Assembly: GCA_011620605.1 (NCBI GenBank)
Contig: WOYW01000011.1
Location: forward strand, 62,001 to 126,000
Length of the DNA: 64,000 nucleotides
Source: Bacteroidales bacterium
GTDB taxonomy: Bacteria > Bacteroidota > Bacteroidia > Bacteroidales > UBA932
Direction of reading: 5' to 3'
In this document: piece after piece, positions 1,940-42,331 of the stretch
How positions within the stretch are numbered: position 1 is the stretch's first letter
Layout of the letters: each line of letters starts with the position of its first letter
The notes under the pieces: generated by a model
What the model saw: only the letters and a program-made list of their open reading frames with translations
Databases searched by the model: none
Told to the model about the DNA's origin: nothing
Program-made: the position numbers and the translations under genes

Positions 1940-3499
1940 ATGAATAAAATAGTTATCATAACGTGTTTATTGTCTTTTTTTATCTCTCAGGAAATTCAAG
2001 CCCAGGAGGCAAGGATCAAAATTGACACGGACCGGAAGATAGGCCGGATAGACAAGAACATCTACGGCAACTTTGTGGAACATCTTGGCCGGTGCGTTTA
2101 CGGCGGTATTTATGATCCGTCTTCCTCCAAAGCAGATCAGGACGGTTTGCGTACCGATGTGCTTGATGCCATCAGGGGCCTGAATGTTTCACTTACACGT
2201 TATCCAGGAGGCAACTTTGTTTCCAATTACCATTGGCTGGACGGAGTGGGTCCGGAACGTGTACCCCGTATGGAACTTGCCTGGGCGCGTCTTGAAACGA
2301 ATGAATTCGGCACAGATGAATTCGTTGATTTTGCAAGAAAAGTCGGGACCGAGCCTTATTTTGCCGTTAACCTGGGCACCGGATCCATAGTTGAAGCCCA
2401 ATCATGGGTGGAATATTGTAATGTCAAAGAAGGACCCTACTATGCCGAGCTTCGCAGAAAGTATGGTCATGAAGAACCACACAATATCAAGTACTGGGGC
2501 CTGGGCAATGAGATGGACGGAGATTGGCAAATGGGCCAGCTCAGTGCAGAAGACTACGTCAAAAAGGCCCGTGAAGCAGCAAAACTTATGAGGAGTACAT
2601 CTCCCGAAATTAAGATTATTGCATCGGGTTCATCCAATTATGCTGCAGGAGCCGATCCCTATCACTGGAATGCCACCATTCTTGCCGGGCTTAAAACGTA
2701 CATTGATTACATTGCTCTACATATGTACGTTGGCAATTATTGAGACAACTATTACGATTTTCTGGCAACTCCGTTGGAAATGGATGAGCGTACCCAGGTG
2801 GTCAGGGGTATGATCCTAAGAGAAAAGTCCCGTCGTCCCGTCTATATTGCATGGGATGAGTACAACGTCTGGTATCGGGCACGCAGTGGGGATGATGTAG
2901 TCGGGAACCGCGCCCTTGAAGAGAAATACAATCTGGAAGACGCTCTGGTTATTGCAGGCTTCTTAAATTGCTTTGTAAGGAACGCCGATATTGTCAAGAT
3001 GGCAAATATGGCCCAGTTGGTGAATGTGATCGCTCCGATTTTTACAGAGGGAGATGAACTGTTTCTTCAGACCATATATTACCCTTTGCAGATGTATGCT
3101 AACAACATGAAGGGAGAATCACTTGATGTGTTCGTGGATAGTCCGACTTACAATACTGCTCCCCGTTTTTCTCTGGGTGACAACGAAGCAAGCACTCATC
3201 TCCAAGACGTTCCCTATCTTGATGTGACCGCTGCATTGGACGGTGATCAGTTGGTGATATGTGTTCTTAACAGGCATAAGGACAACGCTATTTCCACTGA
3301 AATTATTTGCCAACAGGGTGAATTTACAGGTCCGGTGGAAGTGTATGAGATCAACGGTCCCGATATTAAATCGGAAAATGATTTTGACAAAATAAATGTG
3401 CAAACGGTAAGAAAAGATGATCTTAAGAAGCCCGGTGCTTCCTTTGAGTTTTCTTTCCCGGCACATTCGGTCACCATGTTCAAAGGAAAGATCAAATGA
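1940..3499 (+). pseudogene. GH51 alpha-L-arabinofuranosidase interrupted by in-frame TGA
   Basis: This is a GH51 exo-arabinofuranosidase reading frame of about 519 residues with a signal peptide (MNKIVIITCLLSFF...QAQ). The N-terminal half carries YGNFVEHLGRCVYGGIYDP and the acid/base Glu191 in GLGNEMDG. At codon 268 (2741-2743) a TGA follows HMYVGNY; the same frame then continues without a shift as DNYYDFLATPLEMDER. The predicted nucleophile, Glu307 in WDEYN, lies after the stop, so a terminated product of 267 aa cannot be catalytic. The downstream half is open to a second TGA at 3497-3499. Related enzymes often have a charged residue near the stop, so CGA to TGA (Arg to stop) is one likely lesion. 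A true nonsense mutation and a sequencing error are both possible. Confidence 0.85.
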
Positions 3500-3506
3500 C
3501 ATTTAA

Positions 3507-5819
<2,313 letters not shown>

Positions 5820-34468: not shown

Positions 34469-35980
34469 TTGATCCTGAACCCGGTGGACGGATTACGAGC
34501 GCAAGCTTTCCATAGTGACAATGGTGACGGCACATATACCAATCCGTTGATCCCGGCTGATTTTCCGGATCCCGATGTCATATTGGTAGGTGACACTTAT
34601 TACATGGTTTCAACCACTATGTTCGTGTTTCCCGGAGTCACCGTGTTAAAATCTTACGATCTTGTTAACTGGGAATATTGCAGCAATGCAGTGCCTAGGT
34701 TCGATTTTAGCCCCTGTTATGATATGGACGGATGCAACCGTTACGGACACGGACAATGGGCAACCAGTTTCAGGTATCATGACGGGATCTTTTATTTACT
34801 CTTTATAACACTTGACGAAGGGGGATTTCTTTGTTCGGCAACGAATGCCGAAGGCCCCTGGGAGATTAGAAGATTGCCGAAGGGGTTTTACGATCCCGGC
34901 CTGTTTTTCGATGATAACGGAGAAATTTATGTAGCTCATGGTTATGGTGAAATAAGCATCACCCCACTGGATGAGCATTTTGCTCCTGCATGGTCTGATT
35001 CCCTGGTTTACATCGGCACCATCCGCGACGGACTTGAAGGAACTCACGTATATAAGATAGACGGGTATTATTACCTGTATTGTACTTACGGAGGCAGGGA
35101 CGGCATCCAGGTGGCATTACGCTCCAGGAACATTTACGGACCATACGAAGAGAAAATTGTGTTACATGACACCGTTCCCGGAGTAACTTTTGGAATTCAC
35201 CAGGGAGCGCTCATTCAAACGCAAACCGGAGAATGGTGGACCGTACTTTTTGTTGACAGCGGTCCGTTGGGGCGTTTTCCCTCTTTACAACCGGTCAGCT
35301 GGGTGGACGGATGGCCGGAGGCCGGTATTGACGGTAGGGGAGTGATCACTTACAAAAAGCCCGATGTGGGGAAAGTATACCCTGTAAAGCAACTTCCAAC
35401 ATCAGATACTTTTAATGAAACTGCATTAGGTATGCAATGGGGGTGGAACCACAATCCCGACCCGGAAAAATGGTCATTGACACAACGTCCCGGCTACCTA
35501 CGCCTTATAACCGGGAAAGTGGTAAAAATTCTCACAGAGGCTTCCAATATGCTTACTCAAAGGCCTTTTGCACATTACGACAAAGCCATTCCGACCATTG
35601 GAACGACCAAAATGGAAGTGGCTTGCATGAAAGATGGTGATATTGCAGGACTGGCAGTATTCCAGGATCCTTACGCATATATAGCCGTGAAGCAGGAAAA
35701 AGGGGTCAGAAGTCTTATTATGGTCAATAACGGGGAATTGATCGCTTCTGTTCCGGCAGGATCAGCTGCGACCATATACCTGAGGGCGATCCTGTCAAAC
35801 GCAACGGAAGAAGCAAGTTTCGAGTATAGTAATGACAATAAGGAGTATAAGCGGATAGGTGATAACCTGAACATGCAGTTTAACTTGACAGTGTTCACCG
35901 GCAATAAGTTCGGACTGTTTACCTATGCGACTGCAGATCCGGGCGGTTATGTTGATTTTGATTGGTTTACAATGGATTAA
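34469..35980 (+). CDS. GH43 with C-terminal GH43_C2-like domain; 5' end probably frameshifted
   Basis: This is a GH43 enzyme with base Asp in ADFPDPDV, pKa Asp in YDPGLFFDD and acid Glu in GLEGTHVYK, followed by a beta-sandwich (GH43_C2/DUF1349-like) from about residue 310. It is similar to GH43 arabinofuranosidases/xylosidases of the PDPD type. The open frame begins only at a TTG (34469) inside what looks like a signal peptide. An ATG at 34437 is out of phase by one base; one extra T in the T-rich tract at about 34450-34465 would give a normal signal peptide (MK, a run of Phe, [14 protein letters not shown]). The gene as read may therefore be off, phase variable, or carry a sequencing error. 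Confidence 0.8.
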
Positions 35981-35982
35981 CT

Positions 35983-38460
35983 ATGGAAATGAAAAAAAAA
36001 CCCTCCATTGTTTTATTTCTCATCCTTTTTTGTCTGAACAATTCCCCGGCCAACGCCCGGGAAGAATCTTCTCTGAAACTCTGGTATGACAAGCCGGCAA
36101 CCCAATGGGTGGAAGCATTGCCCGTAGGGAACGGTCGTATGGGAGCCATGGTGTATGGCGATCCTTCCCGCGAAACATGGCAGTTAAATGAAAATACGGT
36201 CTGGGCCGGGCAGCCGAACCGCAATGACAATCCCGACGCCAGAGAAGCTTTGCCTGAGGTCAGAAGGCTGATCTTCAGTCAACAATTCAGCGAAGCACAG
36301 GCTTTAATAGATCAAAAATTCATCACCAAAACGTCTCACGGGATGCCTTATCAGACAGTGGGCAACCTGCGTCTCTTTTTTCCGGGCCATGAAAATTACC
36401 TGGATTATTACCGTGAACTTGACCTGGAAAATGCCACCGTGTCATCGCGTTACAAGGTGGATGACGTTACCTATCAAACCCGTGTATTTTCTTCTTTCCC
36501 GGATCAGGTGATCGTTGGCCGGATCACCGCAGATAAAACAGCTGCTTTGCATTTTTCCGTCACTTTGGACTCTTTTCCCGGGGCAGAGCTGTCCACAGAG
36601 GGAAAAGACCAACTTGTTTTATACGGAACAACAAGTGATTTTGAAGGAGTTAAAGGAGCTGTGAAGTATTGTGCAAGGATAAAGATCTTAACAAAAGGCG
36701 GCTCAGTAACTGCCGGTGACACCGTTTTGACAGTGACAGGTGCCGATACGGCAACCATTTATGTTTCAATGGCCACTAATTTTGTCAAATACAATGATCT
36801 TGGAGGGAATTCCTATGAAAAGTCGGCCGCATACCTGGATCAGGCTTTACAAAAGAGTTATGATCATATCCTAAAAGATCATAGTAAGGACTATCAGAAA
36901 TATTTCAACCGGGTACACCTGGATCTTGGAACGACCCAGGCTGCAAACAGACCAACGGATGAGCGGATTGAAAGGTTTTCCACGGAAGACGATCCGCAGT
37001 TGGTCGCATTGTATTTCCAGTTTGGACGTTATTTATTGATCTCTTCTTCCAGGCCCGGAGGTCAGCCGGCCAATTTGCAGGGGATCTGGAACAACCGGCT
37101 TTTTCCTCCGTGGGACAGTAAGTATACTGTAAACATAAACACGGAAATGAATTACTGGCCCTCCCAGATCACAAACCTTGCCGAGTTGGATGAGCCGCTG
37201 ATCCGTATGACTGCCGAACTCTCACATACAGGAAAACAAACGGCCCGGGATATGTACGGAGCCAAAGGCTGGGTGCTTCATCATAACACCGACATATGGA
37301 GGATCAACGGTCCGGTTGACGGCGCATTCTGGGGCATGTGGCCCATGGGTGGAGCCTGGCTTTCCCAGTACCTGTTTGATAAATACCTGTATAACGGGGA
37401 CACAGAATACCTGGAAGATGTATATCCTGTGATCAAAGAAGCTTCCCGTTTTTTTCTGGATTTTCTGATTGAAGAACCTCAGCACAACTGGCTGGTAGTA
37501 ACACCTTCGGTTTCTCCGGAAAATGCACCCCGTGTTCATCCGGAGTATTCGGTTACTGCAGGGGCAACCATGGACAACCAGCTGATATTCGATCTGTTTA
37601 CAAAAACCATAGAAGCCGCCCGTATCCTGAAAAAGGACAAATCACTGGTGGATAGCATTTTCAATAGTCTTGACCGTCTGCCTCCCATGCAGATAGGTTC
37701 ATGGGGACAATTGCAGGAATGGATGTATGACTTGGACAGTCCCGGTGACAGGCACAGGCATGTTTCCCATTTGTACGGACTGTATCCTTCCAACCAGATC
37801 TCGCCGTTCAGAACGCCCGCATTGTTTTGGGCCGCTAAGACCTCTTTAGAGGCCAGAGGCGATGAATCCACGGGTTGGTCCATGGGGTGGAAGGTAAACC
37901 TGTGGGCCAGGTTACTGGACGGAGATCATGCGTATAAACTAATCACAGATCAGCTGTCGCCTGCTGTACAACCCGGCGGAAGACCCCGCGGAGGCACCTA
38001 TCCGAACCTTTTTGATGCGCATCCGCCGTTTCAGATCGACGGCAACTTTGGCTGTACGGCCGGTATAGCTGAAATGCTGCTTCAAAGCCATGACGGAGCC
38101 ATTCATTTGTTGCCGGCACTTCCCAAAGCATGGAAAAGAGGCACGGTAAGGGGATTGAAGGCCCGCGGGGGATTTGAGATAGGCCTTTCATGGGAAAACG
38201 GGATCCTCAACTCGGCAATCATAAGATCCTCTCTGGGAGGGGTTTGTCGTCTGCGGTCCTATGTTCCCCTGTCAGGAAAAGGCTTGAAAAAGGCACGCGG
38301 TGTGAATCCCAATCCGAACTTTTTTGTAGCTGGTGTAAAAGCGCCTCTTGTACACTCAACAAATAACGCTGTTGAATCCGGACATACGAAAGTTTATGAG
38401 TACGATATCCGTACAAAAAAAGGAGATATTATTCAGATAACAGCCCCGGGAATCAATTAA
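35983..38460 (+). CDS. GH95 alpha-L-fucosidase / alpha-L-galactosidase
   Basis: This is a GH95 enzyme of 825 aa. I take the ATG at 35983, 2 bp after the GH43 stop, since it opens the signal peptide ([17 protein letters not shown]); an in-frame upstream start would overlap GH43. Marks are [37 protein letters not shown] (catalytic-site Asn residues), [22 protein letters not shown] and [13 protein letters not shown] (catalytic Asp region). Family members remove alpha-L-fucose, or alpha-L-galactose from complex glucuronoarabinoxylans. The xylan-type esterases here favour the second option, but sequence alone does not decide. Confidence 0.9.
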
Positions 38461-40417: not shown

Positions 40418-42331
40418 ATGAAAAAATTGCAATTTCTATTATTGGCGTTATTACTTACCGCACCGGGCCTGGCCGGGGAATCGACCGTGCAAAGCATTGT
40501 GAAACAACGTATTCGGGTGATCATTGTCAACGATTTCGGGGGAGACCCGGATGGGCTGGTGCAGCTGGCACATCATTTATTATGCGGTTCTACTGAGATT
40601 CGCGCGGTTATCGGATCGCATCTTACGGAAACCACGTCTTTTGACCGTGAAGCGGACCAGGTGGAGCTGGCCTGCCGCAAGGCCGGGGAGGTTGTGTCAT
40701 TGCTGGGAATGGAAAGCCGTGTGCCTGTCTTGCGGGGTGCGGCAAAGGGGATGACAGACCCGGGAGTACCGGTGGATTCTCCGGGTGCCCGAAAGATCAT
40801 AGAAGAGGCGTTGCGTACCGATACCGACATGCCTTTATATGTGGTTTGCGGATCGGGACTGACCGATGTGGCCAGTGCCTGGTTGATGGAACCCTCCATT
40901 GCCGGTCGTTTTACCCTGGTGTGGATAGGCGGACCTGAGTACGAAGGAATAGCCTTTCCGCCACCCGGATATTCAGAGGCGGAATACAATACGAGCATCT
41001 GCATCCCGTCCGTGCAAACGGTCTTCAATCATTCGGATATTCCTATTTGGCAGGTGCCCCGCAACGCCTACAGGCAATGCCTCTATTCATATTATGAAAT
41101 TCAATCGAAGATCAAGACAGCCGGCCCGGTAGGAGCTTATCTGGCTCAGTCACTGGAAGAGGTAATAAGCAATATGAACCGGTGGGGCAACCCCATGGGC
41201 GAAACGTACATCCTGGGGGATTCTCCGCTGGTGCTGCTCACCTCGCTGCAAAGCAACTGGGAACCGGATCCTTCATCCAGCTTTTACCGCCTTGTCCCGG
41301 CTCCGCAGGTAGATAAGCGGGGACAATTTCTGGAAAACCCCGGAGGCCGCCCCATCCGCGTTTACGACCGCCTGGACGTGCGATTGATGTTTGCCGATAT
41401 GGAGGCAAAACTGGAGGCTTTGGGCCGAGACGCATCCGCGCAGGAACGCCGTAACCCGTTTATCACACATATGTATACGGCCGATCCCTCGGCACGGGTT
41501 TTTAACGATACGTTGTTCGTATATCCTTCGCATGACCGGGATGATGCCGTGAACTTCAGCATGAAGGACTGGCATGTGTTTTCCACAACCGATATGAAGC
41601 ACTGGACGGATCACGGGGTGGCTTTTTCCCTGGACGGTATCAGCTGGGCTTCTTCCCGGGCATGGGCTCCGGACTGCATGGAACGCAACGGCCGGTATTA
41701 TTTCTATTACCCGGTGGAAGCCAGCAAGATCGGGGTGGCGGTGGCCGACACCCCGTACGGTCTCTTCAGGGATCCGTTGGACTCGGCATTGATCCACATT
41801 CAAAGCAAAGGGGTGGTGTGCGACCGGGATTTCATAGATCCGGCGGTTTTCATTGACGATGACGGCCAAGCCTACCTCTATATGGGACAGCTGGTTGTCA
41901 ATGCCATCAAGCTGAACCAGGACATGATATCCTACGACGGGCAGGTGCACCTGCTGGAGGGTACCGATGATTTTTTTGAAGCTATATGGATGCACAAATA
42001 CAACGGGACGTATTACCTGTCCTATGCGGCCGGGAGCGGGGAAATCAAATATTGCACGAGCGACAATCCCCTGGGACCGTTTACGTACCGGGGAGTGATC
42101 CTGCAGTCCATGAACAGCGGGACCAACCACCATTCCATCGTGGAGTATAAAGGGCAGTGGTATTTGTTTTACCACAACTCGGACCTATATTACAGGAACC
42201 ACCCGGATTCGGTTGAGAAGTTCGGTTGGGGTCACCGGGGCAGCCCGCATCCTTTCCGCCGGTCTGTCTGTTTTGACAAATTGTACTATAATGAAGACGG
42301 GACCATACAGAAAGTGATTCCTACAAAATAA
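40418..42331 (+). CDS. Nucleoside-hydrolase-like domain fused to GH43
   Basis: This is a secreted two-domain protein of 637 aa with signal peptide MKKLQFLLLALLLTAPGLAG. Residues about 28 to 335 resemble inosine-uridine nucleoside hydrolases: the Ca-binding region reads VNDFGGDPDGLVQL and later LYVVCGSGLTDVASAW. Residues about 345 to 637 are GH43, with base Asp in YTADPSARV, pKa Asp in DFIDPAVFIDDDGQ and acid Glu in FFEAIWMHKYNG. The GH43 part begins where a mature GH43 normally begins (RRNPFITHMY). I know of no described enzyme with this pairing. Both domains hydrolyse pentofuranosides (ribofuranosyl or arabinofuranosyl), so a joint role is conceivable. Codon use is GC-rich like the preceding gene. 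Confidence 0.85.
   Translation: MKKLQFLLLALLLTAPGLAGESTVQSIVKQRIRVIIVNDFGGDPDGLVQLAHHLLCGSTEIRAVIGSHLTETTSFDREADQVELACRKAGEVVSLLGMESRVPVLRGAAKGMTDPGVPVDSPGARKIIEEALRTDTDMPLYVVCGSGLTDVASAWLMEPSIAGRFTLVWIGGPEYEGIAFPPPGYSEAEYNTSICIPSVQTVFNHSDIPIWQVPRNAYRQCLYSYYEIQSKIKTAGPVGAYLAQSLEEVISNMNRWGNPMGETYILGDSPLVLLTSLQSNWEPDPSSSFYRLVPAPQVDKRGQFLENPGGRPIRVYDRLDVRLMFADMEAKLEALGRDASAQERRNPFITHMYTADPSARVFNDTLFVYPSHDRDDAVNFSMKDWHVFSTTDMKHWTDHGVAFSLDGISWASSRAWAPDCMERNGRYYFYYPVEASKIGVAVADTPYGLFRDPLDSALIHIQSKGVVCDRDFIDPAVFIDDDGQAYLYMGQLVVNAIKLNQDMISYDGQVHLLEGTDDFFEAIWMHKYNGTYYLSYAAGSGEIKYCTSDNPLGPFTYRGVILQSMNSGTNHHSIVEYKGQWYLFYHNSDLYYRNHPDSVEKFGWGHRGSPHPFRRSVCFDKLYYNEDGTIQKVIPTK

Follow-up and report, generated by a model that had tools for sequence, protein, structure and literature searches.

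The window, a 64,000-nucleotide stretch of contig WOYW01000011.1 from a Bacteroidales bacterium, contains a gene encoding an N-terminal domain of the nucleoside hydrolase (NH) fold fused to a C-terminal GH43 glycosidase domain. Related loci are present in two further species of the genus, namely Rikenellaceae bacterium DTU002 and a third species represented by L017, which is the same as L028. The gene and its surroundings comprise the following features.

35962..38460, + strand: GH95 gene of the same gene run (Pfam); also upstream in L017/L028
38461..39414, + strand: EamA-type transporter gene (named from its appearance); also upstream in L017/L028
39429..40358, + strand: PD40/TolB-like propeller protein, directly upstream (Pfam); also upstream in both related species
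40418..42331, + strand: whole gene, NH-fold + GH43 fusion, 637 aa (open ORF, Pfam)
40418..40477, + strand: signal-peptide-like N-terminus, about residues 1–20 (by eye)
40502..41422, + strand: NH-fold domain, about residues 29–335 (Pfam, family profile, predicted fold)
40526..40558, + strand: family motif V37-N-D-F-G-G-D-P-D-G-L47 (alignments; CfNH numbering and roles partly presumed)
41432..41452, + strand: linker A339–R345 (ASAQERR), resembling a retained GH43 signal-peptide end (GH43 start listing)
41450..42307, + strand: GH43 domain, residues 345–630, GH43_1-like (Pfam, PDB sequence search)
41483..41485, + strand: D356, predicted general base (alignment to 5a8c and 3qed; family knowledge; excerpts of PMC7809346)
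41837..41839, + strand: D474, predicted pKa modulator (alignment to solved GH43 chains; excerpts of PMC7809346)
41978..41980, + strand: E521, predicted general acid (alignment to solved GH43 chains; excerpts of PMC7809346)
42354..43067, + strand: DUF3784 protein, directly downstream (Pfam); also downstream in DTU002

The fused gene begins 59 bp after the PD40/TolB-like gene and ends 22 bp before the DUF3784 gene, in a run with the GH95 gene. The window proteins scanned, which represent part of the ORFs, include two GH127 proteins, three GH43 domains in all, three PF00756 esterases, a BD-FAE, a carboxylesterase, a glucuronyl-esterase-like protein, an L-arabinose isomerase and an FGGY kinase. 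This content points to an arabinoxylan/arabinan-type locus, and the GH127, GH43, GH95, esterase and L-arabinose isomerase genes around the fusion suit the pentofuranoside chemistry envisaged in the original prediction.

The GH43 half is matched by Pfam family PF04616 over residues 345–630 (131.6 bits against a cut-off of 32.2), which covers positions 2–288 of the 288 in the profile. Its best match among PDB chains is 5a8c (231.5 bits), and the others include 3qed (213.8 bits), 5glk (206.6 bits), which is identical in sequence to 5gln, and 6xn0 (164.5 bits), which we take to be XacGH43_1. D356, D474 and E521 align with the Asp/Asp/Glu catalytic triad of the solved GH43 chains. According to excerpts of PMC7809346, 5gln is CoXyl43, a GH43_1 β-xylosidase/α-L-arabinofuranosidase, and XacGH43_1 is an exo-acting, Ca-activated GH43_1 enzyme with an Asp, Asp, Glu triad; GH43_1 activities are also given in excerpts of PMC8631079. 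The GH43 half resembles these GH43_1 xylosidase/arabinofuranosidases, structures of which are among the top PDB matches and share its triad residues; unlike them, the window protein carries an NH-fold domain, and its best PDB match is 5a8c. The GH43 domain would be an inverting, exo-acting β-xylosidase/α-L-arabinofuranosidase with D356 as base, D474 as modulator and E521 as acid. In the AF2 model, which was built from a shallow alignment, the GH43 part is mostly below pLDDT 50.

Judged from one sequence, the NH call is weak, since the Pfam scores fall under their cut-offs and the NH half, run as a single query sequence against the PDB, gave no match at E 0.1. IU_nuc_hydro (PF01156) matches residues 82–251 of the full protein with 29.8 bits and the NH domain alone with 31.8 bits, both under the gathering score of 34.2; Sde182_NH-like (PF07632) scores 16.4 bits (cut-off 26.8), and Sde0182_C (PF21027) has no match in the protein at E 0.01. 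The assignment becomes firm by profile and predicted fold. A 79-row family profile matches the CfNH structure 1mas at 1.6e-10, and a profile comparison of the family with E. coli RihA/B/C gives E 1.3e-12. The NH part of the AF2 model of the fused protein is mostly above pLDDT 90 and superimposes on 1mas_A with Z 30.0 (rmsd 2.6, 271 residues aligned); the model of a stand-alone relative, L038, has a mean pLDDT of 92.5 and is nearly as close to 1mas_A (Z 29.9, rmsd 2.8, 272 aligned). The Sde_0182 structure 2yhg and XopQ are not among the best 50 structural matches listed, an absence that excludes nothing. The predicted fold bears out the NH fold of the first domain, whose absence had been named originally as a second ground for refutation, and the earlier description of a secreted-type protein with an NH-like domain and a complete GH43 domain agrees with the single open frame and both domain matches; the protein is apparently secreted, its signal peptide being judged by eye.

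A genome scan yielded 102 relatives of the NH domain, and the results rest on 80 of them. They come mostly from Bacteroidota, and also from Verrucomicrobiota, Planctomycetota, Spirochaetota, Ignavibacteriota, Sumerlaeota and Actinomycetota MAGs. Searched with the window's GH43 domain (blastp, E 1e-8), 78 of the 80 loci have no GH43 in the NH frame, one has it (DTU002) and one is cut off. Relatives outside the genus are 45–54% identical to the window protein and mostly single-domain; the frames of L029–L106 have 316–404 aa, except for four judged over-extended and the split L044. Those four (L089, L091, L101 and L104; 496–564 aa) were considered as other N-terminal fusions and rejected, the extra part reading by eye as non-coding; in L089, L091 and L101 a signal-peptide-like stretch stands just ahead of the NH domain. 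The family consensus starts with MK and reaches AQ about 20 residues on, as in secreted Bacteroidota proteins; in the Spirochaetota members L084 and L096 the match already begins at residue 3, so that they seemingly lack a signal peptide.

The alignment (A1) contains 78 of the 91 loci L016–L106 plus the window protein, 79 rows in all. The loci dropped were L024–L026 (distant), L027/L028 (same contigs as L016/L017), L077 (same as L020), L044 (NH frame split in two) and L055, L060, L068, L072, L081 and L082 (assumed near copies). PF01156 matches all 79 rows at E 0.01 or better, with a best value of 1.2e-21, and PF07632 matches 53 of them at E 0.01. The split frame of L044 (8001–9032) belongs to Chryseobacterium sp. 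FP211-J200. The Actinomycetales MAG locus L104 contains, at 2332–4683 and near the family member, a second, distant NH-like paralogue (33%) with the motif DTDAKNEADDQ.

Residue numbers and roles in CfNH (Ca ligands, ribose contacts) are partly those that we presume, and H241 is taken to be the leaving-group acid of group I NHs. Sequence alignment pairs V37 with D8, D39 with D10, D45 with D14 and G46 with D15, with two inserted residues in the Asp motif, and further places G145 at the T126 carbonyl, E189 at E166 and N191 at N168. The structural alignment starts at residue 31 against residue 2, which puts D39 on D10 if it is gap-free. D268 and G267 were paired with D242 and H241 by motif; MAFFT left D268 off D242. 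D39, D45, G145, E189, N191 and D268 are each present in 79/79 rows, and the residue preceding D268 is Gly in all of them. Three of the four Ca ligands and most ribose contacts thus seem to be kept, and one ligand (D15) and, apparently, the base-activating acid H241 are gone. As a guess, D43 in the insertion could replace D15 as a Ca ligand, and E174, also present in 79/79 rows, could act as an acid. The CfNH roles are partly backed by excerpts of PMC3608555.

The window protein shares with NHs (PF01156; CfNH 1mas, E. coli RihA/B/C) the fold, D10, D14, the GxLT region, E166/N168 and, by motif, D242. It differs from them in the two-residue insertion, the replacement of D15 by Gly and apparently of H241 by Gly, the signal-peptide-like start and the score under the Pfam cut-off. 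In place of the defining NH motif DxDPGxDD it has VNDFGGDPDG, with Gly for D15 and Val for D8, and was therefore not filed as an NH proper. A true nucleosidase, scavenging nucleosides and joined to GH43 by chance, would account for the fold and for ribose-binding residues that are the same; with the base-activating acid not evident, D15 lost and plant-fibre genes all around (GH127, GH43, GH95, esterases, L-arabinose isomerase), it is very improbable.

The original prediction had regarded the metal motif NDFGGDPDG (residues 38–46) as altered. The motif is present; its reading as a change specific to this protein, or as local decay, is ruled out, the motif being standard throughout a large family. 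N38, D39, G42, D43, P44 and D45 are found in 79/79 rows, F40 in 78/79 and G41 in 66/79; as NDFGGDPD was one of the six scan patterns, columns 38–45 carry some bias towards it. The pattern does not extend to columns 37 and 46: residue 46 is Gly in 77/79 rows and Asp in 2/79, and residue 37 is Asp in 73, Val in the three genus rows (two shown fused, one cut by a contig end), Cys in two and Ile in one. NDFGGDPDG marks a widespread, mostly stand-alone family between the classical NHs and the NH-like domain of Sde_0182.

The likeness to the Sde_0182 domain (PF07632, 2yhg) lies in the GD(S/T)P motif and the polysaccharide setting. Proteins of the Sde182 type found as neighbours of the family have a DxxxDPD motif in register with that of the window protein; against their DxxxDPDD, the window's DFGGDPDG keeps the first three Asp and has Gly for the last. 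These partners have Leu at the D8 position, where the window genus, with V37, has likewise lost the Asp, and a gap at the window protein's EYN stretch. The window protein in turn shows no Sde0182_C domain and scores under the Sde182_NH-like cut-off. The effectors HopQ1 and XopQ, known here by description, have the published motif DXXXDXDD with the same spacing (excerpts of PMC3608555); they are type III effectors, and the window motif ends in Gly instead of their last Asp. Excerpts of PMC8910321 describe the Sde_0182 domain as retaining a Ca ion, as having no activity on purine or pyrimidine nucleosides and as a proposed furanose-interacting module, and state that XopQ was reported inactive on nucleosides; for HopQ1, no NH activity was detected according to excerpts of PMC3608555. 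Sde_0182 (Cbm2C) is among the supernatant proteins of xylan-grown S. degradans, as far as the reading order of a flattened table in PMC2386152 indicates.

Taken as precedent, Sde_0182 suggests a non-catalytic furanose-binding module that targets GH43, which is quite possible for the NH-fold domain. D15 is absent, H241 has apparently gone and the fused genus lacks D8; together with the reported nucleoside inactivity of Sde_0182 and XopQ, these features favour binding, and fusion to an active GH43 is how such a module would be expected to look. On the other side, the inactivity of Sde_0182 is stated in excerpts of PMC8910321 for nucleosides only, and most relatives stand alone, with 78 of 80 loci lacking GH43 in the NH frame. 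The strongly conserved, stand-alone form of the relatives favours an enzyme: 35 invariant columns in a mostly single-domain family with 45–54% identity to the window protein outside the genus would suit an enzyme better than a binding module.

The NH–GH43 fusion is genuine. An assembly join between the domains, raised originally as grounds for refutation were the architecture found only here, is ruled out by DTU002, a separate MAG of the same genus in which both halves lie in one frame, with 83% (NH) and 87% (GH43) identity to the window protein over aligned codons. An ambiguous base at residue 558 of 597, within GH43, disrupts the DTU002 frame, and the remaining GH43 continues in another frame. 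In the third species (L017/L028) the contig ends inside the NH half, and the upstream GH95, EamA and PD40 genes are 83, 92 and 88% identical to those of the window. The NH half occurs once in the window's source genome, where a search for a second copy gave no match at E 1. With the source genome included each time, the gene was found in 3/13 genomes of the genus sample (1e-10), and matches were found in 4/199 of the family sample (E 1e-5), 3/393 of the order sample (1e-30) and 12/395 of the phylum sample (E 1e-5), with values below 1e-80 for six of these twelve. Viral contigs gave no DNA match to whole-protein patterns; searched with the GH43 half, they yielded one distant GH43 (36%). A literature search, covering mostly titles and the beginnings of abstracts, found no paper on the NH + GH43 architecture.

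In a 79-row tree, midpoint-rooted and with the direction of clades assumed, the three rows of the genus group together in a single starred clade (100/100), nested in a starred set of 12 whose other nine members are unfused Bacteroidales records or members of the window's own family. The linker ahead of the GH43 half reads ASAQ-ERRNPF. Of the GH43 starts that contain NP plus F, I, L or V, 17 unfused ones were listed, and 13 of these have a signal peptide ending in AQ directly ahead of NP; adding the two fused rows, which share ancestry, makes it 15 of 19. The GH43 half accordingly starts like a mature free-standing enzyme, as had been noticed, and the short motif modestly suggests that a GH43 signal-peptide end was retained as the linker. 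From the tree and the linker we infer a single fusion event, in which a stand-alone NH-like gene would have joined a GH43 gene within the latter's signal-peptide end.

Both halves are under constraint. A simple Nei–Gojobori script gives dN/dS values of 0.142, 0.076 and 0.191 for the NH half in three genus pairs and 0.136 for the GH43 half in the single available pair (215 codons). Among the 76 unfused rows, 69 columns are at least 95% conserved, and the genus rows keep 65 of these; the four changes, D37V, F48V (two of three rows), S56C and A276S, could be expected of an inert scaffold kept only for the folding or secretion of GH43. Such a role is improbable: dN/dS stays at 0.076–0.191, all 35 columns invariant in the alignment are retained in the genus rows, and solved GH43 relatives exist without an NH domain.

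The neighbourhoods of the relatives were surveyed at 85 of the 91 loci (L016, L017, L020 and L024–L026 were left out), with neighbour genes defined as the longest non-overlapping open frames. A same-strand partner lies within 150 bp at 57 of these loci and none at 28. From the 147 partners found, 87 were picked by hand for scanning so as to thin out recurring Chryseobacterium-type loci, short frames and members of the fused genus. The scanned partners, given as raw counts, include six Sde182_NH-like proteins, six GH3, five PF00756 esterases, five BD-FAE, four GH43, four FGGY kinases, three carboxylesterases, three GH2 and two GH30. Some relatives are part of operon-like runs that include GH3, GH43, esterases, FGGY kinases or Sde182 proteins: GH3, an esterase-like protein, NH and GH3 in L034; NH, GH30, BD-FAE and GH3 in L032; ABC transport genes, FGGY kinase, esterase, NH and Sde182 in L080; NH with GH2 and two GH43 in L023; and GH78, GH43, NH and GH3 in L106. 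Others do not; the Spirochaetota gene in L084 adjoins leuS-, bacA- and ftsK-like genes. At L054, L073, L077, L080 and L087 the stand-alone NH-like gene adjoins a Sde182-type gene with the motif DIEADPDD, so that two NH-fold proteins of different subfamilies stand side by side.

The best reading is that the NH domain recognises, and perhaps cleaves, pentofuranosides, with catalysis narrowly favoured over binding. The protein would act on pentosides as a secreted enzyme of two domains, encoded in an arabinoxylan/arabinan-type locus. Its N-terminal pocket, mostly kept for a Ca2+-mediated grip on the furanose and apparently without the acid for a leaving nucleobase, would belong to a Ca-dependent furanosidase that takes a pentofuranosyl decoration off hemicellulose oligosaccharides, and the fusion would couple this removal to the release of xylose or arabinose by GH43. 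We hold this whole reading tentatively, at somewhat less than an even chance. It is favoured by the DTU002 fusion and the upstream genes shared with the third species, the genus clade, the Z of 30.0, the pocket residues found in 79/79 rows, the 65/69 columns kept, the low dN/dS, the glycosidase and esterase partners and the occurrence of Sde_0182 in xylan supernatant. Against it stand Gly for D15 in 77/79 rows and at the H241 position in 79/79, V37 and three further changes in the genus, the reported nucleoside inactivity of Sde_0182 and XopQ, the two nearest NH-like proteins studied, the 28/85 loci lacking partners, housekeeping partners (bacA, ftsK) and the presence of the gene in only 3/13 genus genomes.

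Possibly the stand-alone relatives are metal-dependent O-furanosidases built on the NH fold, a family so far unrecognised, in which E174 may serve as acid and to which the window protein would belong as a bifunctional member fused to GH43. In a mixed case, the stand-alone relatives may be enzymes and the fused domain a binding module. If they are O-furanosidases, the relatives are candidates for a new glycoside hydrolase family. Whether the NH-like domains of polysaccharide degraders are enzymes or sugar-binding modules has been a question since Sde_0182. The present family is widespread and, where Pfam detects it, falls under the general nucleoside-hydrolase model; its natural fusion to GH43 points to a pentose-glycan substrate and makes the question addressable with one expressed domain.

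Several other genes deserve mention. At 1940–3499 (+) the window contains an α-L-arabinofuranosidase gene, presumably of the GH51 type, split by an in-frame TGA at 2741–2743; the N-terminal frame has no Pfam match at 1e-3 and the C-terminal frame matches Alpha-L-AF_C. The split may be due to decay, sequencing error or readthrough. In the taxonomic family to which the window's genus belongs, the closest extra-genus GH43 domains of the family sample (55%) occur in genome G080 (L111 and L135), in lipoprotein-like proteins that by eye have a second, different C-terminal half. Genome G126 of that family (L112) encodes a GH43 domain 54% identical to that of the window in a 1144-residue open frame, and the part after GH43 looks by eye like GH95, a near neighbour of the NH–GH43 gene in the window.
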